Shown here: piece after piece, positions 17,071-50,857 of the stretch
How positions within the stretch are numbered: the stretch's first letter is position 1
Layout of the letters: each line of letters opens with the position of its first letter
Assembly: GCA_012295275.1 (NCBI GenBank)
Contig: CM022665.1
Coordinates: forward strand, 36,817,933 to 36,881,932
Direction of reading: 5' to 3'
Source of the DNA: Chrysomallon squamiferum
Lineage: Eukaryota > Mollusca > Gastropoda > Neomphalida > Peltospiridae
DNA: 64,000 nt
Notes under the pieces: generated by a model
Databases searched by the model: none
Seen by the model: only the letters and a program-made list of their open reading frames with translations
What the model was told of the DNA's origin: nothing
Translations under genes and position numbers: made by a program

Positions 17071-18860
17071 TTTTTTTTAAATCCAACAGAAACAACTTAT
17101 AATAATGAGAATGACTGTAAGTGACCAACAAGAACAAGTATATATAATACAGAATATTAACATAACCAGCAAGAAAAAGTGTGTATATATAAGGAATATT
17201 AATATGACCACAAATAATGAATGGATAAATAGAATGATACAGACTACTGGCTGTGTCAGCAAATTACACAAGTTATTTCTTATATAACATTAAATGCTTC
17301 AAGAAATACTTTACGTTTCTTCCTTTAAGCAGAATTCTCTTTTAAATATTATAATTCTGTTTTCCATTTGTAACATAAAGTACTTCTTACAAAAGATAAA
17401 AATATCTGTAATACACAGTTAATAATATATTGCACAATATATCAACAATTTTAATTAATTTCAGTCATATATAATTATTATTTATACAAATATTCAGGAT
17501 CATATAATAAGTTTGATACATGATTTTTGTTTTAAAAAATCAAAAGAAAAGAAACAGAAAAAGAAATAATCTATTATTTGTATTCAGTAACAAGGAAAAT
17601 GTTGAAATGAATATTTGTTCTGATAACACTTCAACATATTTTAATATGAACAGGTATAAAACCTCTGAAATGTTTTGGGATCTGGGATTTTTAAAATCTT
17701 ATTTCTTTGTTTGTTTTGGTTCTTCTGGATAATGAAATAAAACAAAAAACCCACTGCCTTTGCTATGTAGGTTATTCTTATCATAGCATGAAATCTTTTA
17801 GAATTATATACTTTTCTATATTTCATTCCTTTTTCAGACCAGTAAAAGTACATAGGTTGAGGAACTCACTATTGATGCTGTAATTTCAAAATGGCATTCC
17901 ACAGCCCATAATTACAAATTTATCTATCCAACAGAGGGTAAAACCAAATCTGATGCATATAAAAAAAAAAAAACAAAAACAACTTTATGCAAATGTGAAC
18001 ATAACTTTTTTTCTTTCTTTTCTTTTTACAATCACAGATTGGAAACACCTCAAAATACCTGAAAATAATGTATAGCTTTAGAGGTGGTAATGGTGTCAAT
18101 AGTTTAATGATTTCAAAAACAACTTCTTTTCTTTTTTAAACATAAGAGGAATAAATAAAGTCTTCCATTTTCTTTCACCTTTCAGAAAGATTTTAGTGCT
18201 ATGATTATGTATTTTCATTGTTTGTTTTACAAATTTTTTGACATATACTGTATATATTTTATTTATTACATTTTTATATCACCACATATTTGAGATAAGG
18301 AAATAAATTTACAATTCATTTATAAACAAATCATGACAATTAATTCAGTATCAGTCCATTCCTAATGTCTGTGTCTTCAAAAAAACCAACAAATAAAAAA
18401 CCAACATCAAGAACAATAATAATAAATCAAACCAAAAAAACCTCATAAAAGCTCATTTCTTCAATTTAAAAATTTTTAAACAGCTTTCAGCAGATTTTAA
18501 ACTGAATTAATAATCATGTTTTTAAGATACTTTTTAACTTTGAAAACACATCTTTTGACTAAATTACTTCAGACCGTTTTACTGTGTCCAAACATAGACT
18601 TGAATCAACTTTAAACAAAAATTCAATACTGTTTAGTTGTTTAAATTATGAACTTGCATTTTGTCATTAATTAAAGTTAAAAGAAACTACATTACCAACT
18701 ACTGCTGGGTTTAATTCTGGTTTGTTTTGTTGTTGTTTTTGTTGCTGTTTTCTTTTTTTATATTGTTTTGTTTTGTTTGTATTAATATTTTACATTATTC
18801 AAGACTTTTCTTCAAATTGAGAGTTTCTGAAAAAAACACCAAAAAAACCCCAACAAAAAA
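17070..18860. other. 3' flank of the GTPase gene, source of array spacers
   Basis: No further gene is seen. Segment 17120-17215 has two units of the 43-bp minisatellite. Segments 18030-18290 (CTCAAAATACCTGAAAAT, then CTTTCAGAAAGATTTTAG) and 18290-18860 (TTCAATACTGTTTAGTTG) are the unduplicated counterparts of spacers repeated in the array. Confidence 0.6.
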
Positions 18861-18869
18861 ACAAAACAA

Positions 18870-19250
18870 GAATTACAAATAATAGACAATATTAATACCA
18901 CTACCAAGAACAAAATTACGTGTAATACAGATTAATATAACCACCAAAAATAAGAATTATATTTAATACAGAATATTAATATAAGCATCAAGAATTATAT
19001 GTAATAAAGAATATTAATAACCACCAAGAACAAGAATGTTAATGTAACCAGCAAGAGTGAGAATCACAGGTAATAAAGACAGCTAATATAAGTATCAAGA
19101 ACAAGAACTATATTTAATACAGAATATTAAGATAAGCAAACAGAAAAAGATTTACTAGTAATAGCAAATATTTATATAACCAAGAACAAGAATTATATTT
19201 AATACAGAATATTAAGACAAAGATTTGCTAATAATGGCAAATATTAATTT
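18870..19250 (+). repeat. 43-bp minisatellite tract at left edge of array
   Basis: Degenerate units continue from the gene's 3' flank and lead directly into the first exon copy. Confidence 0.8.
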
Positions 19251-19431
19251 ACAATTTTCCATTAAAAATCAATTCATTATTATCTTCTTTTTTTCTTCTT
19301 TCTTTCTTTCGGAACACAAGCAATTTCTTAATTCTTACAGACACAACTACTGATATTTTCTTTATACAAAGAAATGAAATAAATAAATAATAATTGTTTC
19401 GCTATTACTATTTTTCTTCAGGAAAAAGTTA

Positions 19432-19605
19432 CTGGTTAATCTCAAAATTCTGGGAATGAACATTGTTGCTATCAAACCTACTGAAACATTCGGCATGGAG
19501 CAATTACTAACACCGGCACAAAGTTATTGGTGTATGATCTGAGAGGAAGACCTCAATTGTGACCTGTTCAGAGGTTATTTTACAATGCAACTCTGAGAAC
19601 TGTCT
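19432..19605 (+). pseudogene. Exon 2 copy 1
   Basis: The P-loop Lys-Ser codons (AAA AGT) are retained. The parental phase reads KSYW and then TGA 11 codons in. Small deletions surround the switch I Met-Glu-His codons. Confidence 0.85.
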
Positions 19606-20862
19606 AGAAAGATTCTGATGCAGATAAAAATAAAAAATAAAAAATAAAATAAAAATCCAAAATCACAAAAAAGCTGAACCTATTTTTTCATATATATAAA
19701 TATATATCATTTTTTAAATTATGTACTTGTCTTTTGTCATTAATTAAAGTTATAAGAAACTACATTACCAAATATTACTGGCTTTAAATCTTTTTTTTTT
19801 CTTCTTTTTTTTCTGATATAATTCTTTTGTTTGCATTAATCTTTTAATTTACTGAATGCTTTTGTTCAAACTGATAATTTCTAACAAAAAATAAAAACAA
19901 AACAGAATGTTAATGTAATCAGCAAGATGGAGAATTACATGCAACACAGACTATTAAGATAAGCAAAAAAGAACAAGAATTACTAGCGACGCAGAATATT
20001 AATTTAACCACTAAGAAGAATTATATTTAATACAGAAGATTAATGTAACTAACAAGATGAGAAATAAATCCAACAGAGAGTACATGGGTGTGTATCTGCA
20101 TTTGTGTGTAATCACATGATCACAACAAAGCTGAACATATTTGTTTCTTAATAAAATAATTTACAATCAAAACTCAGAAACTCCTCAAAAGGCTGGAAAA
20201 TGTATATCTTTAGAAGTCATATTGGTGTGAATACTTAAATGATTTGAAAAATAATTTAAATTTAAAAAATACAAAAAATGTAAAAGGAATACATTACATT
20301 AGTTAATAATATCTTCCATTTTCTTTTACCTTTCAGAAAGATTTTAGTGTTATGTTTAAATATTTTCAGTGTTTGTTTTACCAAGATTTAATAGTAATAC
20401 CAAATATTAATATAACCAAGAACAAGAATTACCTTTAATACAGAATATTAATAGAACACCAATAGCAAGAAGCTTAGGTAATAAAGAATATTAAAAACCA
20501 CCAAGAACAAGAATTACAACTACTAGAGAATATTAATATATCCATCAAGAACAAGAATTACATTTAACATACAATTAAGATAAGCAAAACAGAACAAGAA
20601 TTACTAGCAACACAGAATATTAATATAACCACAAGAGAATTAAATCCAACACAGAATACTGTGTGTGTGAGTGAGAGAGAGATTATCTTCGACACCTACA
20701 ATTTTCATATAAAATATATCAATTCATTATTACCTTTCTTCTTTCTTTCTTTTTGCAGACAAGATATTCCTACATTCTTACAATCAAAACCACTGATATT
20801 TTCTTTATAAAAACAAATGAAATACATAAATAATAATGTTTTGCCATTATTTGTTTCTTCAG

Positions 20863-20955
20863 GAAAAAGATACTGGGATAGAACATTGCTGCTATCAAAC
20901 CTACTGAAACATTCAACATCAAGCTTCTTTTACAATGCAACTCTGAGATCTGTGT
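20863..20955 (+). pseudogene. Exon 2 copy 2, internally deleted
   Basis: The segment from after switch I (about CAACAT) to the TTTTACAATGCAACT block is missing. In the parental phase it stays open to about 21020 but loses all G-domain similarity after the first codons. Confidence 0.8.
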
Positions 20956-21380
20956 CCTCAAAATGCCTGAAAATGTATATCTTTAGAAGTTGTAATGGTG
21001 AGAATACTTTAATGATTTGATTTGAAAATAACAATTTAAAAAAAAAAAAAAAAGATTTTTTTTAAGAAATAACTTACATCAGCTAATAAAATCTTCCATT
21101 TTCTTTTACCTTTCAGAAAGATTTTAGTGCTATGTTTAAATATTTTCAGTGTTTGTTTTACAAAGATTTACTAGTAACAGCAAATACTAAAATAACCAAG
21201 AACAAGATTTATATTTAATACAGAATATTAACATAAACAAATAGGAAGCAGATAATATTAATCAACCATCAAGAAGAATTACCTTTAACGGACTATTAAG
21301 ATAAGCAAAACAGAAGAAGAATTACTAGCAATACAGAATATTAATATAACCACTAAGAGAATTAAATCCAACATTGAATA

Positions 21381-21382
<2 letters not shown>

Positions 21383-21427
<45 letters not shown>
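21383..21427. repeat. (GT)n microsatellite in array unit
   Basis: About 22 GT units, corresponding to a shorter GT/GA-rich stretch in other units. Confidence 0.9.
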
Positions 21428-21428
<1 letters not shown>

Positions 21429-21603
21429 TTATAATTGACAGATGCAACTTTTCATACAAAATATATCAATTCATTATCTTTTTTCTTTCTTTCTTTTTAA
21501 AGATGAGAGATTCCTTCATTCTTATAATCGAAACCACTGATATTTACTTTATAAAAACAAATGAAATAAATATTTGTTTTGCTATTACTATTTTTTTTTT
21601 CAG

Positions 21604-21789
21604 GAAAAAAGTTATCAGTTACTGCAAAAATTCTTCCAATCAATATTCTTATTATCAAACCTACTGAAACATTCAAGATGGAGCATAGAATTACCAATAG
21701 TGGCAAAAAGTGAATGTGTATGATCTTAGAGGAAGACCTGAATTACCACCTGTTCAGAGGTTATTTTACAATGGAAATCTGAGAAATAG
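21604..21789 (+). pseudogene. Exon 2 copy 3
   Basis: An extra A near the start offsets the shared 4-base loss, so the parental phase reads through KPTETFKMEH and SGKK before meeting TGA. It therefore stays in the parental frame further than the other copies. Confidence 0.82.
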
Positions 21790-23038
21790 AAAGACTGTGA
21801 TGCAGATAAAAATAAAAAATAAAATAAAAATCCCCAAATCACAAAAAAGCTGAACCTATTTTTTCATATATATAAATATATATCATTTTTTAAATTATGT
21901 ACTTGTCTTTTGTCATTAATTAAAGTTATAAGAAACTACATTACCAAATATTACTGGCTTTAAATCTTTTTTTTTTCTTTTTTTTTTCTGATATAATTCT
22001 TTTGTTTGCATTAATCTTTTAATTTATTGAATGCTTTTGTTCAAACTGATAATTTCTAACAAAAAATAAAAACAAAACAGAATGTTAATGTAATCAGCAA
22101 GATGGAGAATTACATGCAACACAGACTATTAAGATAAGCAAAAAAGAACAAGAATTACTAGCTGACATTTAAATATTAATTTAACCACTAAGAAGAATTA
22201 TATTTAATACAGAAGATTAATGTAACTAACAAGATGAGAAATAAATCCAACAGAGAGTACATGGGTGTGTATCTGCATCTGTGTGTAATCACATGATCAC
22301 AACAAAGCTGAACATATTTGTTTCTTAATAAAAAAATTTACAATCAAAACTCAGAAACTCCTCAAAAGGCTGGAAAATGTATATCTTTAGAAGTCATATT
22401 GGTGTGAATACTTAAATGATTTGAAAAATAATTTAAATTTAAAAATACAAAAAATGTAAAAGGAATACATTACATTAGTTAATAATATCTTCCATTGTCT
22501 TTTACCTTTCAGAAAGATTTTAGTGTTATGTTTAAATATTTTCAGTGTTTGTTTTACCAAGATTTAATAGTAATACCAAATATTAATATAACCAAGAACA
22601 AGAATGACCTTTAATACAGAATATTAATAGAACACCAATAGCAAGAAGCTTAGGTAATAAAGAATATTAAAAACCACCAAGAACAAGAATTACAACTACT
22701 AGAGAATATTAATATATCCATCAAGAACAAGAATTACATTTAACATACAATTAAGATAAGCAAAACAGAACAAGAATTACTAGCAACACAGAATATTAAT
22801 ATAACCACAAGAGAATTAAATCCAACACAGAATACTGTGTGTGTGAGTGAGAGAGAGATTATCTTCGACACCTACAATTTTCATATAAAATATATAAATT
22901 CATTATTACCTTTCTTCTTTCTTTCTTTTTGCAGACAAGATATTCCTACATTCTTACAATCAAAACCACTGATATTTTCTTTATAAAAACAAATGAAATA
23001 CATAAATAATAATGTTTTGCCATTATTTGTTTCTTCAG

Positions 23039-23131
23039 GAAAAAGATACTGGGATAGAACATTGCTGCTATCAAACCTACTGAAACATTCAACATCAAGC
23101 TTCTTTTACAATGCAACTCTGAGAACTGTGT
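23039..23131 (+). pseudogene. Exon 2 copy 4 (duplicate of copy 2)
   Basis: It has the same internal deletion as copy 2, which places the deletion before the block duplication. Confidence 0.8.
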
Positions 23132-23552
23132 CCTCAAAATGCCTGAAAATGTATATCTTTAGAAGTTGTAATGGTGAGAATACTTTAATGATTTGAGAAA
23201 TAACAATTTTAAAAAAAAAAAAAGATTTTTTTTAGAAGAAATAACTTACATCAGCTAATAAAATCTTCCATTTTCTTTTACCTTTCAGAAAGATTTTAGT
23301 GCTATGTTTAAATATTTTCAGTGTTTGTTTTACAAAGATTTACTAGTAACAGCAAATACTAAAATAACCAAGAACAAGATTTATATTTAATACAGAATAT
23401 TAACATAAACAAATAGGAAGCAGATAATATTAATCAACCATCAAGAAGAATTACCTTTAACGGACTATTAAGATAAGCAAAACAGAAGAAGAATTACTAG
23501 CAATACAGAATATTAATATAACCACTAAGAGAATTAAATCCAACATTGAATA

Positions 23553-23605
<53 letters not shown>
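23553..23605. repeat. (GT)n microsatellite in array unit
   Basis: The counterpart of the run at 21383, a few repeats longer. Confidence 0.9.
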
Positions 23606-23606
<1 letters not shown>

Positions 23607-23781
23607 TTATAATTGACAGATGCAACTTTTCATACAAAATATATCAATTCATTATCTTTTTTTTTTTTCTTTTTTTAAAGATGAGAGATTCCTTCATTCT
23701 TATAATCGAAACCACTGATATTTACTTTATAAAAACAAATGAAATAAATATTTGTTTTGCTATTACTATTTTTTTTTTCAG

Positions 23782-23967
23782 GAAAAAAGTTATCAGTTAC
23801 TGCAAAAATTCTTCCAATCAATATTCTTATTATCAAACCTACTGAAACATTCAAGATGGAGCATAGAATTACCAATAGTGGCAAAAGTGAATGTGTATGA
23901 TCTTAGAGGAAGACCTGAATTACCACCTGTTCAGAGGTTATTTTACAATGGAAATCTGAGAAATAGA
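23782..23967 (+). pseudogene. Exon 2 copy 5 (duplicate of copy 3)
   Basis: It shares the compensating extra A with copy 3 but lacks one A in the GGCAAAA run. It is therefore read differently through switch II and stops at a TGA there in the parental phase. Confidence 0.82.
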
Positions 23968-24673
23968 AAGATTGTGATGCAGATAAAAATAAAAAATAAA
24001 ATAAAAATCCAAAATCACAAAAAAGCTGAACCTATTTTTTCATATATATAAATATATATCATTTTTTAAATTATGTACTTGTCTTTTGTCATTAATTAAA
24101 GTTATAAGAAACTACATTACCAAATATTACTGGCTTTAAATCTTTTTTTTTTCTTCTTTTTTTTCTGATATAATTCTTTTGTTTGCATTAATCTTTTAAT
24201 TTATTGAATGCTTTTGTTCAAACTGATAATTTCTAACAAAAAATAAAAAAAAAACAGAATGTTAATGTAATCAGCAAGATGGAGAATTACATGCAACACA
24301 GACTATTAAGATAAGCAAAAAAGAACAAGAATTACTAGCGACGCAGAATATTAATTTAACCACTAAGAAGAATTATATTTAATACAGAAGATTAATGTAA
24401 CTAACAAGATGAGAAATAAATCCAACAGAGAGTACATGGGTGTGTATCTGCATTTGTGTGTAATCACATGATCACAACAAAGCTGAACATATTTGTTTCT
24501 TAATAAAAAAATTTACAATCAAAACTCAGAAACTCCTCAAAAGGCTGGAAAATGTATATCTTTAGAAGTCATATTGGTGTGAATACTTAAATGATTTGAA
24601 AAATAATTTAAATTTAAAAAATACAAAAAATGTAAAAGGAATAGATTACATTAGTTAATAATATCTTCCATTT
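23968..24673 (+). repeat. Truncated third copy of the 2.18-kb block
   Basis: It repeats the first roughly 700 bp of the block. It breaks at about 24673, just after CTTCCATTTT, directly into a post-exon A-rich spacer of another unit. Confidence 0.75.
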
Positions 24674-25620: not shown

Positions 25621-25696
25621 AGAAAGATTGTGATGCAGATTATAAAAAAAAAGAAGGCACAGAAAAAGCTCAATTGCAACAAAACTGAACATATTT

Positions 25697-25703
25697 TTAT
25701 ATA

Positions 25704-25733: not shown

Positions 25734-25739
<6 letters not shown>

Positions 25740-26207
25740 CAATCCAAACTAAGAAACTCCTCAAAATGCCTGAAAATGTATAGCGTTAGAAGTCATAATG
25801 GTGTGAATACTTTAATGATTAAAAAATAGAAAATGTATTTAAAAAAAATTAAAAAGTAACAGGAATAAATTACCACAGATAATAATGTCTTCCATTTTCT
25901 TTCACCTTTCAGAAAGATTTTAGTACTATGTTTCAATATTGTCAGTGTTAGTTTTAATCCAACACTGAATACTCTGCCTGTGTGTGTGAGTGCATGCATG
26001 TCTGTGCATGTGTGTGTGTGTCTGTATGATTGCTTGACAGCTACAACTTTTCATATAAAATATATCAATTCATTATCTTTTTTCTTTCTTTCTTTCTGAA
26101 GATGAGAGATTCCTTCATTCTTATAATCAAAACCACTGATATTTTCTTTCTAAAAACAAATGAAATATATAAATATTTGTATTCCTATTTATTTATTTTT
26201 TCTTCAG

Positions 26208-26387
26208 GAAATAGTTAATGCGAAAATTCTTCCAATAAATATTGTTGCTACCAAACCTACTGAAATATTCACAATGTAGAAAACAATTATCAACACTGAC
26301 ATAAAGTTAATGGTATAGGATCTTAGAGGAAAACCTGAATTTCGACCTATTCAGAGGTGTTTTACAATACAATTCCAAAAACAGTCT
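26208..26387 (+). pseudogene. Exon 2 copy 7
   Basis: The parental phase stops at TAA after three codons. The switch I homologue has TAG in place of the Glu codon. Confidence 0.8.
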
Positions 26388-27214
26388 AGCAGGATTCTGC
26401 AGTGAATAAAAAAAAGAAGAAAAAGCAGAAAAAAATACACAATTGCAACAAAGCTGAACATATTCTTCTTTAGGTTTTTTACAATGAAAAATCAAAAACA
26501 AATCAAAATGCCTAAAAATGTATACCTATAGAAATGGTAATGCTGAAAGCACTTAAATGATTTGAAAAATAAGAAATGAATTTAAAAAAATAAATAAATA
26601 AATAAATAATTTTTTAAAAATGTAGAAGGAAAAAATTACTTCAATGAAGTTAATAAAGTCTACCATTTTCTTTACCTTTCAGGAAGATTTGTGCAATGTT
26701 TACACATTTTCAGTGTTTTTTTTACAAACTTCTTACATATACTGTATACATTTTCTTAATTTCATTTTTATATCATCAACCAACAATAACAATTATCATT
26801 AAAACAGAATATTAAGATAAGCAAAACAACTGAGAATTACTAGTAATGCAGAAAATTAATACAACAGCCTAAAACAAGAATTACATTTAATAGACTTTTA
26901 AGATAAGAAAAAAGAATTAGAATTAATAGAAACACAGAATATTAATGTAACCAATGAGAATTATATTTAATACAGATTGTTAATATAACCATCAAGAACA
27001 GAATTAATTCCAACACAGAATACAGTCTGGGTGTCTCTGTGATTGTTTGACACCTACAACTTTTTGTACAAAATGTATCATCTTTTTTTCTTTCTTTCTT
27101 TTTCAACACAAGAGATTCCTTCATTCTTACAATAAAAACCACTGATATTTTCTTTATACAAAGAAATGAAATAAATGAATAATATTTGTTTTGCTATTAT
27201 TATTTTTTCTTCAG

Positions 27215-27365
27215 GAGAACGTTACTGGTTCATCTCAAAATTCTTCGAATGAACATTGTTGCTATCAAATCTACCGAAACATTCAACCTAGAGCATACAA
27301 TTACCAACACTGGCAATTGCTACCTGTTCAGAGGATATTTTACAATCCAACTGAAATAACAGTCT
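27215..27365 (+). pseudogene. Exon 2 copy 8 (switch II-deleted subfamily)
   Basis: About 37 bases from the SGKK codons to the ELxP codons are missing, giving GGCAATTGCTACCTG. Copies 11 and 16 have the same deletion. Confidence 0.82.
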
Positions 27366-28190
27366 AGCAAGATTCTAATGCAAATAAAAAATAATAAAAA
27401 GAAGCAAAAAAACACACAATTGTAAAAAGGCTAAATGTATTATTGTTTGTTACTTTTTACAATGAAAACACTTAAGCCCCTCAAAATGCCTGAAAATGTA
27501 TAGCTTCAGAAGTGGTAATGCTGAAAGCACTTAAATGATTTGAAAACTACAAAATGAATTTAAAAAAATAAAAATAAATAAATAAATAATTTTTTTAAAA
27601 TGTAGAAGGAAAAAATTTCTTCAATAAAGTTAATAAAGTTTTCCATTTTCTTCACCCTTCAGGAAGATTTGTGCAATGTTTACACACTTTCAGAGTTTGT
27701 TTTACAAACTTCTTACATATACTGTATACATTTTATTTATTTTATTTTTATATCATCAACCAACAATAAGAATTATATTTAATACAGAGTATTAATCTAA
27801 GAAGACTGACAATTACTAGTAAAGCAGAATATTAATACAACTGCCAACAACAAGAATTACATTTAATAGACTATTAAGATGAGAAAAAAGAATTAGAATT
27901 ACTAGCAACACACAATATTAATGTAACCAATGAGAATTATATTTAATACAGATTGTTAATATAACCATCAAGAACAGAATTAATTCCAACACAGAATACA
28001 GTCTGGGTGTCTGTGTGATTTTTTGACACCTACAACTTTTCGTACAAAATGTACCATCTTTTTTTCTTTCTTTCTTTTTCAACACAAGAGATTCCTTCAT
28101 TCTTACAATAACAACCACTGATATTTTCTTTATACAAACAAATGAAATAAATGAATAATATTTGTTTTGCTATTATTATTTTTTCTTCAG

Positions 28191-28377
28191 GAGAACGTTA
28201 CTGGTTCATCTCAAAATTCTTGGAATGAACATTGTTGCTATCAAATGTACTGAAACATTCAACATGGAGCATACAATTACCAACACTGGCAAAACGCTTC
28301 TGGTGTATGGTCTTAGAGGAAGACCTGAACTGCCACCTCTTCAGAGGTTATTTCACAATGCAACTACAAGAACAGTG
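28191..28377 (+). pseudogene. Exon 2 copy 9
   Basis: The intact alternative frame reads LKILGMNIVAIK and RGRPELPPLQR, but needs a phase-2 intron. The parental phase stops at GGAATGAAC. It has the diagnostic AAAACGCTTCTGG, shared with copy 10. Confidence 0.85.
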
Positions 28378-29209
28378 TAGCAAGATTCTAATGCAGATAA
28401 AAAATAAAATAAAATAAAAGAAGCAAAAAAACACACAATTGCAAGAAAGCTAAATGTATTATAGTTTTGTTTTTTTTGACAATGAAAACTCTTAAGCCCC
28501 TCAAAATGCCTGAAAATGTATAGCTTCAGAAGTGGTAATGCTGAAAGCACTTAAATGATTTGAAAACTACAAACTGAATTTAAAAAAATAAAAAAATAAA
28601 TAAATATTTTTTTAAAATGTAGAAGGAAAAAATTACTTCAATGAAGTTAATAATGTCTTCCATTTTCTTTACCTTTCAGGAAGATTTGTGCAATGTTTAC
28701 ATATTTTCAGTGTTTGTTTTACAAACTTCTTACATATACTGTATACATTTTCTTTCTTTCATTTTTATATCATCAATCAACAATAACAATTATAATTAAC
28801 ACAGAATATTAAGCTAAGCAAAAGGACTGAGAATTACTGGTAATGCAGAATATTAATACAACCGCCAAGAACAAAACTTACATTTAATAAACTATTAAGA
28901 TGAGAAAAAAGAATTAGAATTACTAGCAACACAGAATATTAATGTAACCAGTGAGAATCATATTTAATACAGATTGTTAATATAACAACCAAGAACAGAA
29001 TTAATTCCAATACAATACAGTCTGGGTGTCTGTATGATTTTTTGACACCTACAACTTTTTGTACAAAATGTATCATCTTTTTTTCTTTCTTTCTTTTTCA
29101 ACACAAGAGATTCCTTCATTCTTACACTAACAACCACTGATATTTTCTTTATACAAAGAAATGAAATAAATGAATAATATTTGTTTTGCTATTATTATTT
29201 TTTCTTCAG

Positions 29210-29396
29210 GAGAACGTTACTAGTTCATCTCAAAATTCTTGGAATGAACATTGTTGCTATCAAATGTACTGAAACATTCAACATGGAGCATACAATTACC
29301 AACACTGGCAAAACGCTTCTGGTGTATGGTCTTAGAGGAAGACCTGAACTGCCACCTCTTCAGAGGTTATTTCACAATGCAACTACAAGAACAGTG
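29210..29396 (+). pseudogene. Exon 2 copy 10
   Basis: Nearly identical to copy 9, including the 3' end ACAAGAACAGTGTAG, so it is a recent neighbour duplicate. Confidence 0.85.
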
Positions 29397-30226: not shown

Positions 30227-30377
30227 GAGAACGTTACTGGTTCATCTCAAAATTCTTGGAATGAACATTGTTGCTATCAAATGTACTGAAACATTCAACC
30301 TAGAGCATACAATTACCAACACTGGCAATTGCTACCTGTTCAGAGGATATTTTACAATCCAACTGAAAGAACAGTCT
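30227..30377 (+). pseudogene. Exon 2 copy 11 (switch II-deleted subfamily)
   Basis: It carries the same 37-base deletion as copy 8, three monomers away, with intervening monomers lacking it. Confidence 0.82.
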
Positions 30378-38268: not shown

Positions 38269-38455
38269 GAGAAAATTACTGGTTCATCTCAAAATTCTTG
38301 GAATGAACATTGTTGCTATCAAATGTACTGAAACATTCAATATGGAGCATACAATTACCAACACTGGCAAAACGATTATGGTGTATGGTCTTAGTGGAAG
38401 ACCTGAATTGCAACCTCTTCAGAGGTTATTTTACAATCAACAACAAGAACAGTCT
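38269..38455 (+). pseudogene. Exon 2 copy 19 (duplicate of copy 17)
   Basis: The only exon difference seen is GTGTATGG versus GTGTGTGG. Confidence 0.85.
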
Positions 38456-39288
38456 AGCAAGATTCTAATGCAGATAAAAAATTTAAAACAATAAAAAGAA
38501 GCAAAAAACACACAATTGCAAGAAAGCTCAATGTATTATTGTTTCTTTTTTTCTTTACAATGAAAACTCAGAAGCCCCTCAAAATGCCTCAAAATGTATA
38601 ACTTTAGAAGTGGTAATACTGAAAGCACTTAAATGATTTGAAAAATAAGAAATGAATTTAAAAAATACAATAAATCAATAAATAATTTTTTTTAAATGTA
38701 GAAGAAAAAAATTACTTCAATGAAGTTAATAAAGTCTTCCATTTTCTTTACCTTTCAGGAAGATTTGTGCAATGTTTACACATTTTCAGTGTTTGTTTTA
38801 CAAACTTCTTACATACACTGTATACATTTTATTTATTTCATTTTTATATCATCAACCAACAATAAGAATTATAATTAATACAGAATATTAATCTAAGCAA
38901 AGACTGACAATTACTAGTAATGCAGAATATTAATACAACCGCCAAGAACAAGAATTACCTTTAATAGCCTATTAAGATAAGAAAAAAGAATTAGAATTAC
39001 TAGCAACACAGAATATTAATGTAACCAATGAGAATTATATTTAATACAGAATGTTAATATAACCATCAAGAACAGAATTAATTCCAACACAGAATACAGT
39101 CTGGGTGTCTGTGTGATTTTTTGACACCTACAACTTTTCGTACAAAATGTATCATCTTTTCTTCTTTCTTTCTTTTTCAACACAAGAGATTCCTTCATTC
39201 TTACAATAACAACCACTGATATTTTCTTTATACAAAGAAATGAAATAAATGAATAATATTTGTTTTGCTATTATTATTTTTTCTTCAG

Positions 39289-39476
39289 GAGAACGTTACT
39301 GGTTCATCTCAAAATTCTTGGAATGAACATTGTTGCTATCAAATGTACTGAAACATTCAACATGGAGCATACAATTACCAACACTGGCAAAAAGTTAATG
39401 GTATATGATCTTTGAGGAAGACCTGAATTGCCACCTCTTCAGAGGTTATTTTACAATGCAACTCCAAGAACAGTCT
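39289..39476 (+). pseudogene. Exon 2 copy 20 (duplicate of copy 18)
   Basis: It differs from copy 18 at a single visible site in the exon (GTTGCT versus GTAGCT). Confidence 0.85.
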
Positions 39477-39666
39477 AGCAAGATTCTAATGCAGATAAAA
39501 AATTTAAGAAACATAAACAGAAGCAAAAAACACACAATTGCAAGAAAGCTAAATGTATTATAATTTTTTTTTTTTTTTACAATGAAAACTCTTAAGCCCC
39601 TCAAAATGCCTGAAAATGTATAGCTTCAGAAGTGGTAATGCTGATAGCACTTAAATGATTTGAAAA

Positions 39667-39736
39667 CTCATAGAGGAAGACCTGAATTGCCATCTCTTCA
39701 GAGGTTATTTTACAATGCAAATATGAAATAGTGTCT
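39667..39736 (+). pseudogene. Exon 2 fragment at a chimeric junction
   Basis: Only the switch II part (TAGAGGAAGACCTGAATTGC onward) is present. It is fused to a monomer spacer (GAAAACTCA) and has no acceptor. It marks the change from 1.0-kb monomers to the right-hand unit type. Confidence 0.75.
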
Positions 39737-40479
39737 AGAAAGTTTGGATGCAGATTATGTATATATTTGTTTTATAATCAAAACTCAGAAACCCCTCAAA
39801 ATGCCTGAAAATGTATATCTTTAGCAGTGGTAATGGTGTGAATACTTTAACGATTACAAAAATAGAAAATGTATTTTAAAAAAAATTAAAATGTAAAACG
39901 AATAAATTATCTCAGATAATGTCTTCCATTTTCTTTTACCTTTCAGAAAGATTTTAGTGTTATGTTTAAATATTTTCAGTGTTTGTTTTACAAAGATTTT
40001 ACTAGTAATAGCAAATATTAATATAATCAAGAACAAGAATTATATTTAATACAGAATATTAATATAAACACCAACAGAAAGACGTTTAGGTGATAAAGAA
40101 TATTAAAAACCACTGAGAACAAGAATTGCATCTACCAAAGAATATGAATCAACCATGAAGAAGAAATACATTTAACAGACTATTAAGATAAGCAAAACAG
40201 AACAAGAATTAAAAGCTATACAGAATATTAATACAACCACTAAGAAGAGAGTTAAATCCAACACTGAATAGTCTGTCTGTGTATATGTGTGCGTGTGCGT
40301 GTGTGTGATTATGTTTAACAGCTATAATTTTTCATACAAAATGTATCAGTTCATTACCTGTTTTCTTTCCTGTTTAAGATGAGAGATTCCTTCATTCTTA
40401 TAATTGAAACCACTTATATTTTCTTTGTAAAAACAAATGAAATAAATAAATATTTGTTTTTTATCATTTTTTTCTTCAG

Positions 40480-40646
40480 GAAATCGTTACCAGTTAATGT
40501 GAAAATTATTCCAATCAATATTGTTGCTACCAAACCTACTGAAATATTCAACATGGAGCATACAATTACCAACCCTGACAAAAAAGTTAATGGTATATGA
40601 TCTTTGAGGAAACCTGAATAGTGACCTTTTTCAGAGGTTATTTTTT
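40480..40646 (+). pseudogene. Exon 2 copy 21
   Basis: The parental phase stops at ATG TGA. Homology ends within the LFY codons, and the following CATGTGACC is shared with copies 23 and 25. Confidence 0.8.
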
Positions 40647-41029
40647 TCAAATCATGTGACCACTTAAATGGTTTCTTAAAAAAAAAACAATGAATTTAAA
40701 AAAAAAAAAAAATAATAATAATTTTTTATAATAATAATAATAATAATAAAGTAAAGGAATCAAATTAAATGAATTAATAAAAATTTCCATTTTTTTTTTC
40801 AATTTCTAGAAGATTTTTAGTCTTATGTTTATATATTTTCAGTGTTTACATCATGTTTTAAATTCTTACTATGAATATTTATTTCATTTTCATATCTCCA
40901 CATATCTGAGATAGAATTATGAAACATTCAAGGAACATATATTTACATGTCAAGACATTTTACAATTCACTTATGAAAAAATTATGAAAATCAATTCAGT
41001 ATCATTCCATTCCTAAAAGTCTGTTTATT

Positions 41030-41032
41030 CAA

Positions 41033-41093
<61 letters not shown>

Positions 41094-41130
41094 AATAATA
41101 AATAAAAATAATAATAATAATAAATCTAAA
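41030..41130. repeat. (AAT)n-(AAAT)n microsatellite
   Basis: Runs of AAT and AAAT units. Counterparts lie at 43730-43845 and 46465-46575. Confidence 0.9.
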
Positions 41131-41645
41131 TGAAACCTCAAAAATCCAATAAAAACTGATTTTTTTACAATTTTCAAATCTTTAGACAGCTTTTTACAGA
41201 TTTTAAACAGAATTATTGTTTTTAATATACATTTCAGACTTCAGAACATCTTTGAAAACACATCTTTTCAGTAAATTATTTCAGCCGTTTTTAGAGTCTC
41301 TTAATAAGACAGGCATCAATTCTTAAAAAAAAATTCAATACTGTTTAGTTGTTTATATTATGTACTTGTGTTTTGTCATTAATTAAAGTAATAAGAAACA
41401 TTACCAAAACTGCTTTTTAATGTCTGGTTTGTTTTGTCATTGTTTTTTTGTGGGGTTTTTTGTAACTGTTTTGTTTGTATTGATCTCTTACTTTATTCAA
41501 GGCTTTTGTTTAAATTGAGAATTTCTGACTAAAATAATACAGAAGGTTAATGTAACCAGCAAGATGGAGAATTACATATAACAGAGAGAGTTAATGTAAG
41601 TATAAAGAACAAGAACTATATTTAATACAGAATATTAAGCAAAGC

Positions 41646-41679
<34 letters not shown>

Positions 41680-42196
41680 TTTACTAGTAATAGCAAATAT
41701 TGATATAACGAAGAACAAAAATGATATTTAATACAGAATATTAATATAACAACCAATAACAAGAAGTTTATGTAATCAAGACTATTAAAAACCTCACAGA
41801 ACAAGAATTACAAGAGCTAGAGAATATTAATATAACCTCCAAGAACAAGAATTGCTTTTAATAGATTATTAAGATAAACAAAAAAGAACTAGAATTACCA
41901 GCAACACAAAATATTAATACAACTGCTAAGAAGAACTATATTTAATACAGATTAATATAACCATCAAGAAGAGAATTAAATCCAACACAGAATACTGTCT
42001 GTGTGTGTCTGTGTGTGATGATGTTTGACACGTACGTTTCGTACAAAATGTATCAATTCATCATCTTATTTCTTTCTTTCTTTTTCAACACAAGAGATTC
42101 CTTCATTCTTACAATCACAACCACTGATATTTTCTTTATACAAACAAATGAAATAAATATAAAATATTTGTTTTGCTATTATTATTTATTCTTCAG

Positions 42197-42391
42197 GAGA
42201 AAGTTACTGGTTCATCTCAAAATTCTTGGAATGAACATTGTTGCTATCAAAATGTACTGAAAACATTCAACATGAAGCATACTATTACAAACACTGTCAA
42301 AAGGTAATGGTGTATGGTCTTAGAGAGAAAGAACTGAATTCCCACCTCTTCATAGGTTATTTTACAATGCAAATATGAAAAAAAAGTGTCT
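42197..42391 (+). pseudogene. Exon 2 copy 22
   Basis: Extra A residues in ATCAAAATG and GAAAACATTC break even the alternative frame that copy 24 keeps. Confidence 0.82.
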
Positions 42392-43204
42392 AGAAAGATT
42401 TTGATGCGCAGATTATCAGAAAGAAAAAAAAAAAAAAAAAAAAAACAGTGCAGATTGAACAAATTTTTAGATATATATATATATATATTATATTTTTTTT
42501 TACAATCAAAACTCAGAAACCCCTCAAAATGCCTGAAAATGTATAGCTTTTAGAAGTGGTAATTGTATGAATACTTTAATGATTACTAAAAGATAAAAAT
42601 GTATTTAAAAAAAAAAAAAAATGTAAAATGAATAAATTACCTCAGATAATAATGTCTTCCATTTTCTTTTACCTTTCAGAAAGATTTTAGTGTTATGTTT
42701 AAATATTTTCAGTGTTTCTTTTACAAAGATTTTACTAGTAATAGCAAATATTAATATAACCAAGAACAAGAATTATATTTAATACAGAATATTAATATAA
42801 ACACCAATAGAAAGACGTTTAGGTGATAAAAAATATTGAAAACCACCGAGAACAACAATTACAACTACCAAAGAATATTAATCAACCATGAAGAAGAATT
42901 ACATTTAATCGACTATTATGATAAGCAAAACAGAACCAGAATTACCAGCAATACAGAATATTAATACAACCACTAAGAAGAGTTAAGTCCAACACTGATT
43001 AATCTTTCTGTGTACGTGTGCGTGTGTGTGTGTGATTGTTTGACAACTATAACTTTTCATACAAAATGTATCAATTCATTATCTTTTTTCTTTCTTTCTT
43101 TTTGAAGATGAGAGATTCGTTCATTCTTATAATTGAAACCATTTATATTTTCTTTATAAAAACAAATGAAATAAATATTTGTTTTGTATTATTGTTTTCT
43201 TCAG

Positions 43205-43372
43205 GAAATAGTTACCAGTTATGTGAAAATTCTTACAGTCAATATTGTTGCTACCAAACCTACTGAAATATTCAACATGGAGCATACAATTACCAACCCT
43301 GACAAAAAGTTAATGGTATATGATCTTAGAGGAAGACCTGAATAGTGACCTGTTCAGAGGTTATTTTACAAT
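43205..43372 (+). pseudogene. Exon 2 copy 23
   Basis: It keeps ACCAAACCTACTGAA like the parent (Thr-Lys-Pro-Thr-Glu), but reads TGA eight codons in and TAG-TGA after RRPE. Confidence 0.82.
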
Positions 43373-43417
43373 CATGTGACCACTTAAATGGTTTGAAAAA
43401 AAATGAATTAAAAAAAA

Positions 43418-43419
43418 AA

Positions 43420-43465
<46 letters not shown>
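43418..43465. repeat. (AAT)n microsatellite
   Basis: About 15 AAT units after copy 23. A counterpart follows copy 25 at 46155-46197. Confidence 0.9.
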
Positions 43466-43467
<2 letters not shown>

Positions 43468-43731
43468 GTAGAAGGAATCAATTACTTGAGTTATTAAAGT
43501 CTTCCATTTTCTTTTACCTTTCTAGAAGATTTTAGTGTTATGTTTATATATTTTCAGTGTTTACTTTACGAAATTCTTACTCTATATATTATATTTATTT
43601 CATTTTCATATCTCCACATATCTGAGATAAGAAACGTATATTTACATGTCAAGACATTTTACAATTCACTTATGAAAAAATTATGAAAATCAATTCAGTA
43701 TCATTCCATTCCTAAAAGTCTGTTTATTCAA

Positions 43732-43806
<75 letters not shown>

Positions 43807-44917
43807 AATAGTAATATAAATAAATAAATAATAATAATAATAAATCTAAATGAAACCTCAAAAATCCAATAAAAACTGATTTTGCAAATTTTCAAATCTT
43901 TAGACAGCTTTTTACAGATTTTAAACAGAATTATTGTTTTTAATATACATTTCAGACTTCAGAACATCTTTGAAAACACATCTTTTCAGTAAATTATTTC
44001 AGCCGTTTTTAGAGTCTCTTAATAAGACAGGCATCAATTCTTAAAAAAAAATTCAATACTGTTTAGTTGTTTATATTATGTACTTGTGTTTTGTCATTAA
44101 TTAAAGTAATAAGAAACGACATTACCAACAACTGCTGGCTTTAATTCTGGTTTGTTTTGTCATTGTATTTTTGTGGGGTTTTTTGTAACTGTTTTGTTTG
44201 TATTGATCTCTTACTTTATTCAAGGCTTTTGTTTAAATTGAGAATTTCTGACTAAAATAATACAGAAGGTTAATGTAACCAGCAAGATGGAGAATTACAT
44301 ATAACAGAGAGAGTTAATGTAAGTATAAAGAACAAGAACTATATTTAATACAGAATATTAAGCAAAGCCAAAAAAAAAGAAAAAAAAAAAGAAAAAAAGA
44401 TTTACTAGTAATAGCAAATATTGATATAACGAAGAACAAAAATGATATTTAATACAGAATATTAATATAACAACCAATAACAAGAAGTTTATGTAATCAA
44501 GACTATTAAAAACCTCACAGAACAAGAATTACAAGAGCTAGAGAATATTAATATAACCTCCAAGAACAAGAATTGCTTTTAATAGATTATTAAGATAAAC
44601 AAAAAAGAACTAGAATTACCAGCAACACAAAATATTAATACAACTGCTAAGAAGAACTATATTTAATACAGATTAATATAACCATCAAGAAGAGAATTAA
44701 ATCCAACACAGAATACTGTCTGTGTGTGTCTGTGTGTGATGATGTTTGACACGTACGTTTCGTACAAAATGTATCAATTCATCATCTTATTTCTTTCTTT
44801 CTTTTTCAACACAAGAGATTCCTTCATTCTTACAATCACAACCACTGATATTTTCTTTATACAAACAAATGAAATAAATATAAAATATTTGTTTTGCTAT
44901 TATTATTTATTCTTCAG

Positions 44918-45108
44918 GAGAAAGTTACTGGTTCATCTCAAAATTCTTGGAATGAACATTGTTGCTATGAAATGTACTGAAACATTCAACACGGAGCATA
45001 CTATTACAAACACTGTCAAAAAGGTAATGGTGTATCGTCTTAGACGAATACCCGAATTGCCACCTCTTCATAGGTCATTTTACAATGCAAATATGAAAAA
45101 AAGTGTCT
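44918..45108 (+). pseudogene. Exon 2 copy 24
   Basis: A long alternative-phase frame runs from the minisatellite through LKILGMNIVAMK to the VYRLRRIPELPP segment. The parental phase is closed by TGA at GGAATGAAC. Confidence 0.82.
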
Positions 45109-45192
45109 AGAAAGATTTTGATGCAGATTATCAGAAAGAAAAAAAAAAAGGAAAAAAAAAAAACAGTCGCTACAAAGCTGAACAAATTTTTA

Positions 45193-45218
45193 GATATATA
45201 TATATATATATATATATA
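45193..45218. repeat. (TA)n microsatellite in array spacer
   Basis: About 13 TA units, longer than the counterpart at 42470-42488. Confidence 0.85.
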
Positions 45219-45932
45219 TTGTTTTACAATCAAAACTCAGAAACCCCTCAAAATGCCTGAAAATGTATAGCTTTGGAAGTGGTAATTGTATGAATACTCT
45301 AATGATTACTAAAAGAGAAAATGTATTTAAAAAAAAAAAAATGTAAAATGAATAAATTACCTCAGATAATAATGTCTTCCATTTTCTTTTACCTTTCAGA
45401 AAGATTTTAGTGTTATGTTTAAATATTTTCAGTGTTTCTTTTACAAAGATTTTACTAGTAATAGCAAATATTAATATAACCAAGAACAAGAATTATATTT
45501 AATACAGAATATTAATATAAACACCAATAGAAAGACGTTTAGGTGATAAAAAATATTGAAAACCACCGAGAACAACAATTACAACTACCAAAGAATATTA
45601 ATCAACCATGAAGAAGAATTACATTTAATCGACTATTATGATAAGCAAAACAGAACCAGAATTACCAGCAATACAGAATATTAATACAACCACTAAGAAG
45701 AGTTAAGTCCAACACTGATTAATCTTTCTGTGTAATGCGTGTGTGTGTGTGTGTGTGTGATTGTTTGACAACTATAACTTTTCATACAAAATGTATCAAT
45801 TCATTATCTTTTTTTTTCTTTCTTTTTTTTGAAGATGAGAGATTAGTTCATTCTTATAATTGAAACCATTTATATTTTCTTTATAAAAAACAAATGAAAT
45901 AAATATTTGTTTTGTATTATTGTTTTCTTCAG

Positions 45933-46102
45933 GAAATAGTTACCAGTTATGTGAAAATTCTTACAGTCAATATTGTTGCTACCAAACCTACTGAAATATT
46001 CAACATGGAGCATACAATTACCAACCCTGACAAAAAAAGTTAATGGTATATGATCTTAGAGGAAGACCTGAATAGTGACCTGTTCAGAGGTTATTTTACA
46101 AT
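45933..46102 (+). pseudogene. Exon 2 copy 25
   Basis: Matches copy 23, with extra A residues in GACAAAAAAAG. Confidence 0.82.
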
Positions 46103-46154
46103 CATGTGACCACTTAAATGGTTTGAAAAAAAAAAAATGAATTAAAAAAAAAAA

Positions 46155-46199
<45 letters not shown>

Positions 46200-46463
46200 G
46201 TAGAAGGAATCAATTACTTGAGTTATTAAAGTCTTCCATTTTCTTTTACCTTTCTAGAAGATTTTAGTGTTATGTTTATATATTTTCAGTGTTTACTTTA
46301 CGAAATTCTTACTCTATATATTATATTTATTTCATTTTCATATCTCCACATATCTGAGATAAGAAACGTATATTTACATGTCAAGACATTTTACAATTCA
46401 CTTATGAAAAAATTATGAAAATCAATTCAGTATCATTCCATTCCTAAAAGTCTGTTTATTCAA

Positions 46464-46503
<40 letters not shown>

Positions 46504-46505
46504 TA

Positions 46506-46536
<31 letters not shown>

Positions 46537-47484
46537 AATAGTAATATAAATAAATAAATAATAATAATAATAAATCTAAATGAAACCTCAAAAATCCAAT
46601 AAAAACTGATTTTGCAAATTTTCAAATCTTTAAACAGCTTTTTACAGATTTTAAACAGAATTATTGTTTTTAATATACATTTCAGACTTCAGAACATCTT
46701 TGAAAACACATCTTTTCAGTAAATTATTTCAGCCGTTTTTAGAGTCTCTTAATAAGACAGGCATCAATTCTTAAAAAAAAAATTCAATACTGTTTAGTTG
46801 TTTTATTATGTACTTCTGTTTTGTCATTAATTAAAGTAATAAGAAACGACATTACCAACAACTGCTGGCTTTAATTCTGGTTTTTTTTTGTTGTTTTTTT
46901 TGTGGGGGTTTTTGTAACTGTTTTGTTTGTATTGATCTCTTACTTTATTCAAGGCGTTTGTTGAAATTGAGAATTTCTGACAAAAAAAATACAGAAGGTT
47001 AATGTAACCAGGAAGATGGAGAATTACATATAACAGAGAGAGTTAATGTAAGTATAAAGAACAAGAATTATATTTAATACAGAATATTCAAACAAAGCCA
47101 AAAAAAAGGAAAAAAAAAGAAAAAAAGATTTACTAGTAATAGCAAATATTGATACAACCAAGAACAATTATATTTAATACAGAATATTAATATAACAACC
47201 AATAGCAAGAAGTTTATTTAATCAAGACTATTAAAAACCTCACAGAACAAGAATTACAAGAGCTAGAGAATATTAATATAACCTCCAAGAACAAGAATTG
47301 CTTTTAATAGATTATTAAGATAAACAAAAAAGAACAAGAATTACCAGCAACACAAAATATTAATATAACTTCTAAGAAGAATTATATTTAATACAGAATT
47401 TTAATATAACCATGAAGAAGAGAATTCAATCCAACATAGAATAGTCTGTGTATGTGTATGTGTGTGTGTATGTATATGTGTGTA

Positions 47485-47493
47485 TGTGTCTGG

Positions 47494-47525
<32 letters not shown>
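47485..47525. repeat. (GT)n microsatellite in array unit
   Basis: A GT run interrupted by CTGGC, in the position where other units carry a GT-rich stretch. Confidence 0.85.
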
Positions 47526-47529
<4 letters not shown>

Positions 47530-47662
47530 ATGTCTGATACCTACGTTTCTTTCTGTTTGAAGACAAGAGATTCCTTCATTCTTGCTACCACTGATATCTT
47601 CTTTACACAAACAAATGAAATAAATAAATAGTATTTGTTTTGCTATTATTTTTTTTCTTCAG

Positions 47663-47692
47663 GAAACATTACCGACTGATCTCAAGTTATGG
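47663..47692 (+). pseudogene. Exon 2 copy 26, stub
   Basis: About 30 bases follow the acceptor before the sequence jumps into a minisatellite tract (GAATTACTAGCAACACCG). Confidence 0.7.
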
Positions 47693-47982
47693 GAATTACT
47701 AGCAACACCGAATATTAATATAACCAATAAGAAGAATTATTTAATACAGATTAATATAACCATCAAGAACAGAATTAATTCCAACACAGAATACAGTCTG
47801 GGTGTCTGTGTGATTTTTTGACACCTACAACTTTTCGTACAAAATGTATCTTATTTCTTTCTTTCTTTTTCAACATAAGAGATTCCTTCATTCTTACAAT
47901 AAAAACCACTGATATTTTCTTTATACAAAGAAATGAAATAAATGAATAATATTTGTTTTGCTATTATTATTTTTTTCTTCAG

Positions 47983-48025
47983 GAGAAAGTTACTGGTTCA
48001 TCTCAAAATTCTTGGAATGAACATT
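47983..48025 (+). pseudogene. Exon 2 copy 27, stub
   Basis: The exon breaks at GAACATT and continues as TTCTTTTACCTTTCAG of the 3' flank. The two parents share CATT at the join, so a short-homology deletion is likely. Confidence 0.7.
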
Positions 48026-48144
48026 TTCTTTTACCTTTCAGAAAGATTTCAGTGTTATGTTTACCTATTTTTAGTGTTTGTTTTACAAAATTCTTAATAT
48101 ACTGTATATATTTTATTTATTTCATTTTTATTTGACCACATATT

Positions 48145-48760
48145 TGAGATAACGAACATAAATTTACATGTCAAGAAATTAAACAATTCCTTTATAAACA
48201 AATTATGAAAATCAATTCAGCATCAGTCCATTCCTAAATGTCTGTTTATTTAAATTAAAAAAATAAATAAATAAATAAATAAACAATAAATAAATAGATA
48301 ATAATAAAACAAACCAAAAAAACACCCATAAAATCTAATTTCTTCAATTTTAAAATCTGAAAATACCTTTTAGCAGATCTTAAGCAGAATTATTAATGAT
48401 GTTTTTAAGATGTCATTTTAACTTTAGAACGCCTTTGAAAAAATCATCTTTTCGCTAAATTATTTGAGACGTTTTTCTGGTGTCCTAACACACTTCCATC
48501 AACTTTTAAAACAAATTCAATACTGTTTAGTTGTTTAAATTATGTCCTTGTGTTTTGTCATTGATTAAAGTTATAAGACACTACATTACCAACTACTACT
48601 GGCTTTAATTCTGTTTTTTTGTTGTTTTTTTGTTTGTGTGTGGGGTTTTTTGTTGTTTTTTTGTTGTTTTTTTGTTTTGTTTTTTAATTATTTAGTTTCT
48701 ATTAACAAAGCTTTTGTTGAAATTGAGAATTTCTGAGAAAAAAAACAAAAAAAAATACAG
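48145..48760 (+). repeat. Long-form 3' flank copy at right edge
   Basis: It matches gene flank 18290-18870 and the copies at 40905-41550, 43620-44265 and 46350-46995, including TTCAATACTGTTTAGTTG and the GT-rich block near 48620. Confidence 0.75.
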
Positions 48761-49443
48761 AATGTTAATTAACCAGCAAGAGGGAGAATTACATATAATA
48801 CAGACAGTTAATGTAAGTATGAAGAACAAGAATTATATTTAATATAGAATATTAAGCTAAGCAAAAAGAAAGAGATTCACTAGTAATAGCAAATATTAAC
48901 CAACAACAAGAATTATATTCAATACAGAATATTAAGCTAAGCAAAAAGAAAAACATTTAATAGAGAATAACGTAACCAAGAACAAAAATTATTTTTAATA
49001 CAGAATATTAATATATCCACCAATAGCAAGAGGTTTATGTAATAAAGAATATAAAAAACCTCCATGAACAAGAATTACAAATGCTAGAGAATATTGATAT
49101 AACCACAAAGAACAAGAATTAAATTTAACAGACCATTAAGATAAGCAAAAAAGAATAAGAATTACTAGCAACATAGAATATTAATATAATCACCAAGAAG
49201 AGAATTAAATCCAACACAGATTACTGTTTCTGTGCCTGTGTATGTGTGCCTTTGTGTGTAATTATGTTTCACATTTACAACTTTTTCATACAAAATGTAC
49301 CAATTTATTGTTATGTTCATTCTTTCTTTCTTTTTGAAGATGAGAGATTCCTTCATTCTTACAATCACAACCAGATATTTTCTTTATAAAAACAAATGAA
49401 ATAAATAAATAATATTTGTTTTGCTTTTATTCTTTTTCTTCAG

Positions 49444-49622
49444 GAAAAAGTTACCAGTTAATGTGAAAATTCTTACAATCAATATTGTTCCTATCAAACT
49501 ACTCAAACATACAACATGAAGCATACAATTACCAACAATGGCAATGGTGTATGATCTTAGAGGAAAACCTTAATTGCAACCTGTTCAGACATTAGTTTAT
49601 ACTGCAACTCCAAGAACAATCT
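49444..49622 (+). pseudogene. Exon 2 copy 28
   Basis: More decayed than the central copies, with deletions around KPTE and SGKK. The P-loop Lys-Ser codons survive. Confidence 0.78.
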
Positions 49623-49896
49623 AGAAAGATTCTTCTACAAATAAAAAAAATAAAAAACAAAAAGAAGCAAAACAACCCTCAACCACGACAAAGCTGAACA
49701 TGTTATTGTTCTGGGATTTTTTACATGGAAAAATAGGAAACCCCTCAAAATGCCTCAAAATGTATAGCTTTAGAAGTGGTAATCATGTAAGCACTTAAAT
49801 GATTTCAAAAATAGGAAATGAATTTGAAAAAAAAACAAAAAAAAAGCAAATGAAATAAATAAATAAAATTTATTTTGCTATTATTTTTTTCTTCAG

Positions 49897-50186
49897 GAAA
49901 AATTTACCAGTTAATCTCAAAATTATGGGAATGAACACAGTTAATCTCAAACCTATTGAAACATTCAGCATAAAGCAATTACCAATACCAGCAAAAAGTT
50001 AATAGTGTATGATCTTAGAGGAAGACCTGAATAGCGACCTCTTCAGATGTTATTTTACAATGCAATTCAAGAAATTGTCTTGGTGGTGGAAATTATCAAT
50101 AGAAGACGTAAGGATGATCTGAACACATCACTAAGAGTAGCTAAACTGACCAATGTCCCTGTCTTGGTAGTGGCCAACAGAATAGA
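49897..50186 (+). pseudogene. Exon 2 copy 29, only copy with the 3' half
   Basis: Homology extends through GAAATTGTCTTGGTGGTGG, AAACTGACCAATGTCCCT and GTAGTGGCCAACAGAATAG, which correspond to the IVFVV, KLTSVP and VVANRT codons. It has the shared early TGA, internal deletions and no donor. It marks the right boundary of the array and looks like an older duplicate. Confidence 0.82.
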
Positions 50187-50189
50187 AAA

Positions 50190-50857
50190 ATGAATAACTG
50201 ATAAAGTAAAAAAAAAAAAAGATGAATTAAGACAAAAGAAAATGAATGAATGAAAAACAGCACCGAAATGAACTTCAAATTAATCATAATTATTTTTTAA
50301 ATCTAAACCAATTAAATAATGATTATTAATTGGTAAATTGCTATGCCACAAGTCTTTTCAGTAATCACATATGATTTCTATTTTATTTACACTTTCCCAT
50401 AAACAGAAAGGTTTTCAATAAATAGTGCTTTTTATAAACCTGCTGATTGAGCTGTATCTGCAATAGGAAATATCCTGTTACCACTGTGATGGATTGATCT
50501 TCTGGCCAATCCTTCATCAGACAAATATTTCTAACCACAAAGTCATAACTAATGACAAAAACACAGGTGCAACTAAACATGCAAGTTTAACAACAAAAGA
50601 AAAATAATTTAGAAATCAACTTGGTTTAAATATGATTTTGTCAATTAATTTAATACCAATTAAAATAATTTTTGTTGAAGGTTCCTGACACACAATATTA
50701 ATATGTTTATTACCAGTACTGATATCAAACTGGACAGTATCCTAGTAACAATTTCTATCTCATCATAACAAAATGCACTTGCGTTTCACAAATGTGAATA
50801 CTGGCTTGATATTAATGAATCTTACACCACATAATTATTATAGTCAGTACTTTTTAT

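Follow-up and report, generated by a model that had tools for sequence, protein, structure and literature searches.

Among the gene-derived arrays that we found in the literature searched, the nearest to the locus analyzed here are PCKR (pseudo-CK2beta-tes repeats) and Su(Ste)/Stellate of Drosophila melanogaster which, in the portions of PMC7874207 that were available, are presented as tandem gene-derived pseudo-copies with intermediate forms, Su(Ste) being a source of piRNAs. Macrosatellites such as D4Z4, in the excerpts consulted, have a large tandem unit with gene-derived sequence, in that case a retrotransposed gene. Other satellite DNAs, according to parts of PMC12692304 and PMC5615363, were born from other repeats and consist of tandem, non-coding, partly homogenised units; among their sources, the accessible text of section 4.1 of PMC12692304 names transposons, rDNA spacers, micro- and minisatellites, and older satellites. 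Most satellites have lost the traces of their source. In the genome of the gastropod Chrysomallon squamiferum, the window, i.e., the 64,000-nucleotide stretch of DNA that we analyzed, contains a satellite-like array without evident function that has probably grown locally from a pseudogene fragment of the adjoining ARF-family gene.

This gene (14927-17069, + strand) lies just upstream of the array, is intact and consists of three exons (Table 1). The product contains an Arf domain (PF00025, residues 23-184, E 1.4e-31 in a Pfam search) and hence belongs to the ARF/ARL GTPases. Three homologues of the protein were identified, one of them from the gastropod Gigantopelta aegis (65% identity). In one homologue, P0001, the G3 region (residues about 64-81) is unalignable with the others and appears out of frame, which could mean that P0001 is a pseudogene or was mispredicted. 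On the other side, the array is bounded by an MCM8-like gene on the minus strand, and thus is located between two convergent genes; by eye, the list of open reading frames probably includes further exons of the MCM8-like gene up to about 63 kb. A Pfam search with 9 of the 28 frames of at least 90 aa revealed the MCM8 winged-helix domain and nothing else, and no RNA families (at Rfam gathering scores) or tRNAs were found in the window. A remnant of the 44-bp minisatellite of intron 1 is present at 17087-17217, directly after the stop codon of the ARF-family gene, which makes this the third place with this repeat besides the intron and the array.

Table 1. Coordinates of the ARF-family gene, the components of the array and the neighboring gene in the window
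Feature	Position	Strand	Evidence or remarks
Exon 1 (coding part)	14927..15032	+	joins exons 2 and 3 to give a 582-nt open frame, 193 aa
44-bp minisatellite, intron 1	15436..15995	+	TRF
Exon 2, source of array copies	16201..16518	+	BLAST in window, frame joining, genome search
Exon 3 including stop codon	16912..17069	+	self match alone; none in array
Gene 3' flank incorporated in unit	17949..18862 (start about)	+	to about 18284 in core units, about 18848 in others
First array unit	18862..19605	+	colinear with gene 15550-16392: 624/724 = 86.2% of aligned bases, 139 gap positions
Left sub-array, 2.18-kb composite unit	19268..24672	+	19291-22496 vs 21479-24672, 95.9%
Core sub-array, 14 units of about 1.0 kb, last cut short	26031..39667	+	
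Right sub-array, 2.72-kb composite of two unit types, nearly three copies	39756..47685	+	39756-44941 vs 42486-47685, 93.2%
Two acceptor-only units, then longest flank copy	47546..48754	+	48022-48753 matches 18166-18847
Diverged right-hand unit	49265..49811	+	carries exon2/flank junction
Rightmost copy	49844..50186	+	exon 2 runs past junction point to 16510; shared 4-nt deletion present
MCM8-like last exon	51421-51696	-	PF25051 E 3.5e-14 and PDB matches (MCM8 chains)

The array extends from 18862 to 50186, in agreement with the span of 18860..50190 in the original prediction, and all copies are on the + strand, as is the gene. A BLAST search with exon 2 identified 28 places besides the gene itself (31 rows minus the gene and two split rows), the shortest piece being 48 bp long (at 39673), and two additional units, at 47546 and 47817, retain the acceptor side alone of the exon region; the predicted number of at least 29 copies was accordingly close although inexact. 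The two 20-mers quoted as recurring in the copies indeed do so, with 27 and 24 occurrences at up to 3 mismatches (the gene counted in each), every one of them on the + strand; 100 shuffles gave means of 0.02 and 0.00. In the filtered search, no minus-strand (inverted) copies were detected within the array, and the only matches to the array outside 15.4-50.2 kb of the window (E up to 1e-5) were four low-complexity ones. The copies had been described as arranged head to tail, which is correct; however, they follow each other at regular distances (978-1021 bp, 13 intervals) only between 26.0 and 39.1 kb, whereas the two sides are composite, with periods of 2.18 kb and 2.72 kb. Thus, the array shares the tandem, head-to-tail organization of satellites and macrosatellites but occupies a single locus, with about 30 units, instead of reaching a high copy number or several loci, and we therefore call it satellite-like.

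The typical unit consists of the 3' flank of the gene, the 44-bp minisatellite, the intron-1 acceptor region and exon 2 up to 16392, in this order, with deletions in some units. The 5' part of exon 2, the acceptor and the flanks had been correctly predicted as components of the copies, but the DNA from the 3' flank of the gene had not been named. The left end of the copied fragment, 15550, falls inside the intron-1 minisatellite, and the sequence from there onward is colinear with 18862-19215 (302 of 345 positions identical, with 36 gap positions). The junction between exon 2 and the flank is recognizable with at most one mismatch in 20 of the 28 exon pieces, compared with 2.2 expected by chance; the remainder comprise two variants, five pieces from which the junction region was later deleted (20688, 22864, 40312, 43037 and 45762) and the rightmost copy, which lacks the motif. 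This copy is the only one to continue beyond 16392; it can be aligned up to 16510 (201/238) and, past the equivalent of that position, enters unrelated DNA. There is no trace of intron 2 at the right end of the array (the score was equalled or beaten in 157 of 300 shuffles), and BLAST with intron 2 produced no match in the array apart from one to a TG microsatellite. The acceptor AG is kept, by alignment column, in 25 of the 27 aligned copies, and in the other two, CAGG is shifted by one column. Retention of parental intron sequence (the minisatellite and the acceptor) is characteristic of unprocessed pseudogenes.

So is a broken reading frame free of coding constraint. Bases 16235-16238 of the gene are absent from all 27 aligned copies, including the rightmost one (the 48-bp piece at 39673 was left out of the alignment), resulting in a frameshift. 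In the surrounding YSWxLGVxNI region, the gene and its three homologues align without gaps, which indicates that the loss of the four nucleotides is derived; most simply, to judge from the alignment, the copies would descend from one already broken copy. Stops in the phase of the gene are present in 24 of the 27 copies, and the remaining three (20688, 22864 and 23613) are stop-free but frameshifted as well. Substitutions are distributed about equally over the three codon positions, both relative to the gene (11/63, 13/63 and 12/62) and among the copies (156/1575, 168/1578 and 149/1555). In another frame, the copies encode LKILGMNIV, a peptide that we take to be ARF-like; considering that the homologues share the frame of the gene, we treat it as a chance occurrence.

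The original prediction, which was largely correct, placed the parent, intermediate forms and homogenised monomers side by side; the window contains the gene, diverged unit types and a homogenised core. The core units from 27044 to 39120 are 91.4-99.9% identical to one another and 74.8-80.3% identical to the gene across the acceptor and exon, whereas the unit at 26031 represents a different type (80.9-86.6% identity to core units); homogenisation, as expected under concerted evolution, is accordingly seen within the core and does not extend to the other unit types. Most core pairs differ by at least 2%, and units carry private indels. Exceptions are a one-unit repeat (28022/29041, 99.1%) and a two-unit repeat (36061 and 37080 vs 38100 and 39120, 99.9 and 99.6%). 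The nearest relative of each of the units 33052, 34057 and 35075 switches along its length, a mosaic pattern expected from unequal exchange or conversion. The core revealed no regular higher-order period: units that are 1-8 positions apart are, on average, no more alike than in random order (fractions 0.12-0.90). The best identity per kilobase to another part of the array is 92-98% over 26-47 kb, 79-83% at 48-49 kb and 85% at 25 kb; over 19-24 kb, it is 95.9%, so that the left side cannot simply be regarded as an ancient margin, and the 2.18-kb duplication in the left sub-array is recent, although the non-core unit types are more diverged. In the midpoint-rooted tree of 28 rows, the gene joins the rightmost copy with 84/95 support; the tree also separates two main unit types (99/97 and 96/92), which take turns along the right sub-array.

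We propose the following tentative scenario for the origin of the array. A direct-orientation copy of the segment from intron 1 (15550, within the minisatellite) through exon 2 would have been placed at 18862, 1.8 kb beyond the stop codon, and would then have lost the four exon bases. A tandem duplication that began at about 17949 in the 3' flank and ended midway through the copied exon 2 (16392) could then have generated the unit together with its exon2/flank junction, and unequal exchange between misaligned units, accompanied by small deletions, might account for the multiplication and partial homogenisation. Because the duplication would have ended at 16392, only the rightmost copy reaches 16510, and a single event thus could explain both the junction and the longer exon of that copy. 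At least two duplication steps are needed. Derivation from this gene, as originally predicted, is supported by the colinearity of the first unit, by the lack of any other exon-2 match in the assembly among those listed, where the other Arf-type genes encode proteins with at most 35% identity, and by the shared frame-breaking deletion; the predicted growth by unequal crossing-over, which we infer from the recent one- and two-unit duplications and the mosaic units, likewise gains support. Our fairly high confidence that the array originated from the gene and grew locally does not carry over to the exact order of the steps, which we consider only moderately likely. Several features count against this reading, namely the lack of a regular higher-order period in the core, the 84/95 support combined with a midpoint root, and two flank windows, starting at 18050 and 18170, that are 91 and 93% identical between the gene flank and the copies, compared with 50-87% for other windows with data; plain drift does not explain these two windows. 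The blocks concerned are 18050-18080 and 18170-18200, the second located just after the letters AATAAA.

The first step is not fully readable because the right end of the array retains no trace of intron 2 and no target-site repeat. A rather unlikely yet appreciable alternative, which coincides with the preferred reading in all but this step and the origin of the junction, is that the whole block 15550-18862 was tandemly duplicated, and one unit, having later lost the 3' part of exon 2 together with intron 2, exon 3 and 17071-17948, subsequently spread, the right end having been cut separately at 16510. The first unit starts where such a duplication would, and flank up to about 18848 is found in several units, but extra deletions are required, and neither intron 2 nor exon 3 nor the near flank has left a trace at the end of the rightmost copy. 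We rejected retroposition given that intron-1 sequence is retained and no target-site repeat is apparent (the edges have at most a 9-nt word in common, a length reached by 114 of 500 random pairs). An array of conversion donors, as in chicken immunoglobulin genes, was rejected as well, the aligned copies being frameshifted and having no 30-mer in common with the coding sequence, and so were alternative exons: the copies end at or before 16392 (16510 in the rightmost one), and the donor that follows 16518 in the parent is missing.

That the assembler expanded, collapsed or misordered the array appears very unlikely: the 99.1-99.9% identity of three core unit pairs means that the number of units there could be wrong, but the divergence of most other pairs and the private indels argue against an artefact, as do the absence of N from the window and the small number of contigs in the assembly (22). 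Least probable of all is that the repeat is part of a dispersed family, of mobile elements or of minisatellites, which contains or borders the gene by coincidence. In the 404.6-Mb assembly, 6 of the 43 listed matches to the 44-bp minisatellite and 23 of the 84 listed matches to the gene flank are located elsewhere (for the minisatellite, on other contigs), which would be compatible with such a family; however, none of the six minisatellite places contains a 44-bp array, one of them being an AAT/AAC microsatellite, and 19 of the 23 flank matches fall on the low-complexity, T/G-rich segment 18688-18799, none being much longer than 100 bp. Moreover, all 27 listed exon-2 matches (gene included) and all 25 listed unit matches map to this locus. 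These counts are lower bounds because the searches scored the best candidates and skipped common words, which is probably also the reason that the array core itself is absent from the listed unit matches. A better match of the copies to a dispersed family had been named as one of the observations that would speak against the original prediction; the assembly searches largely cover this point, and among the matches listed, no whole units occur elsewhere.

Changes are distributed about evenly over codon positions, and the variability of the exon part among 12 core units (pi 0.065) falls inside the spread seen for the remainder of the unit (0.046-0.095); we therefore regard the array as most likely inert. 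It is conceivable but highly improbable that the array is transcribed, for example through antisense read-through of the convergent MCM8-like gene (51.4 kb), and that small or antisense RNA from these transcripts affects the GTPase gene. The orientation of the minus-strand gene, the 52 array positions that share a 21-mer with the coding sequence and the precedent of Su(Ste), insofar as the consulted text describes it, would fit such a role, but the shared 21-mers cover only 32 of the 582 coding bases, there are no shared 30-mers and no inverted copies, and the exon part gives no sign of constraint. A marginally less probable form of this idea is that the array has been kept for such RNA, made by MCM8-like read-through and tuning the neighboring GTPase gene; if so, it would represent an equivalent of Su(Ste) that acts locally and in cis and that arose from an exon of its target.

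The array differs from the known systems in its source and position. The PCKR and Su(Ste) repeats, in the available portions of PMC7874207, are pseudogenes with an ancestral promoter on the Y chromosome, whereas the unit described here combines part of a single exon with intron and flank sequence and is located beside its parent; unlike the D4Z4 unit, as characterized in the excerpts seen, it is an unspliced, frameshifted fragment. Protein-coding exons do not appear among the satellite sources in the accessible text of section 4.1 of PMC12692304, whereas here the source is a coding exon, and among the listed titles and abstract beginnings of open-access papers, we found no report of a satellite that derives from a single protein-coding exon next to the parent gene. 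Tandem pseudo-copies are already known in kind, and the mechanism is ordinary, but it is unusual for one locus to hold so complete a record: the parent gene, founder junctions, frame-breaking deletion, diverged unit types and homogenised core are all found within 35 kb and, to the extent that the assembly was searched, at no other place in the genome. With the record from parent to core preserved in one place, each event in models of the conversion of a single-copy sequence into a satellite can therefore be examined individually.
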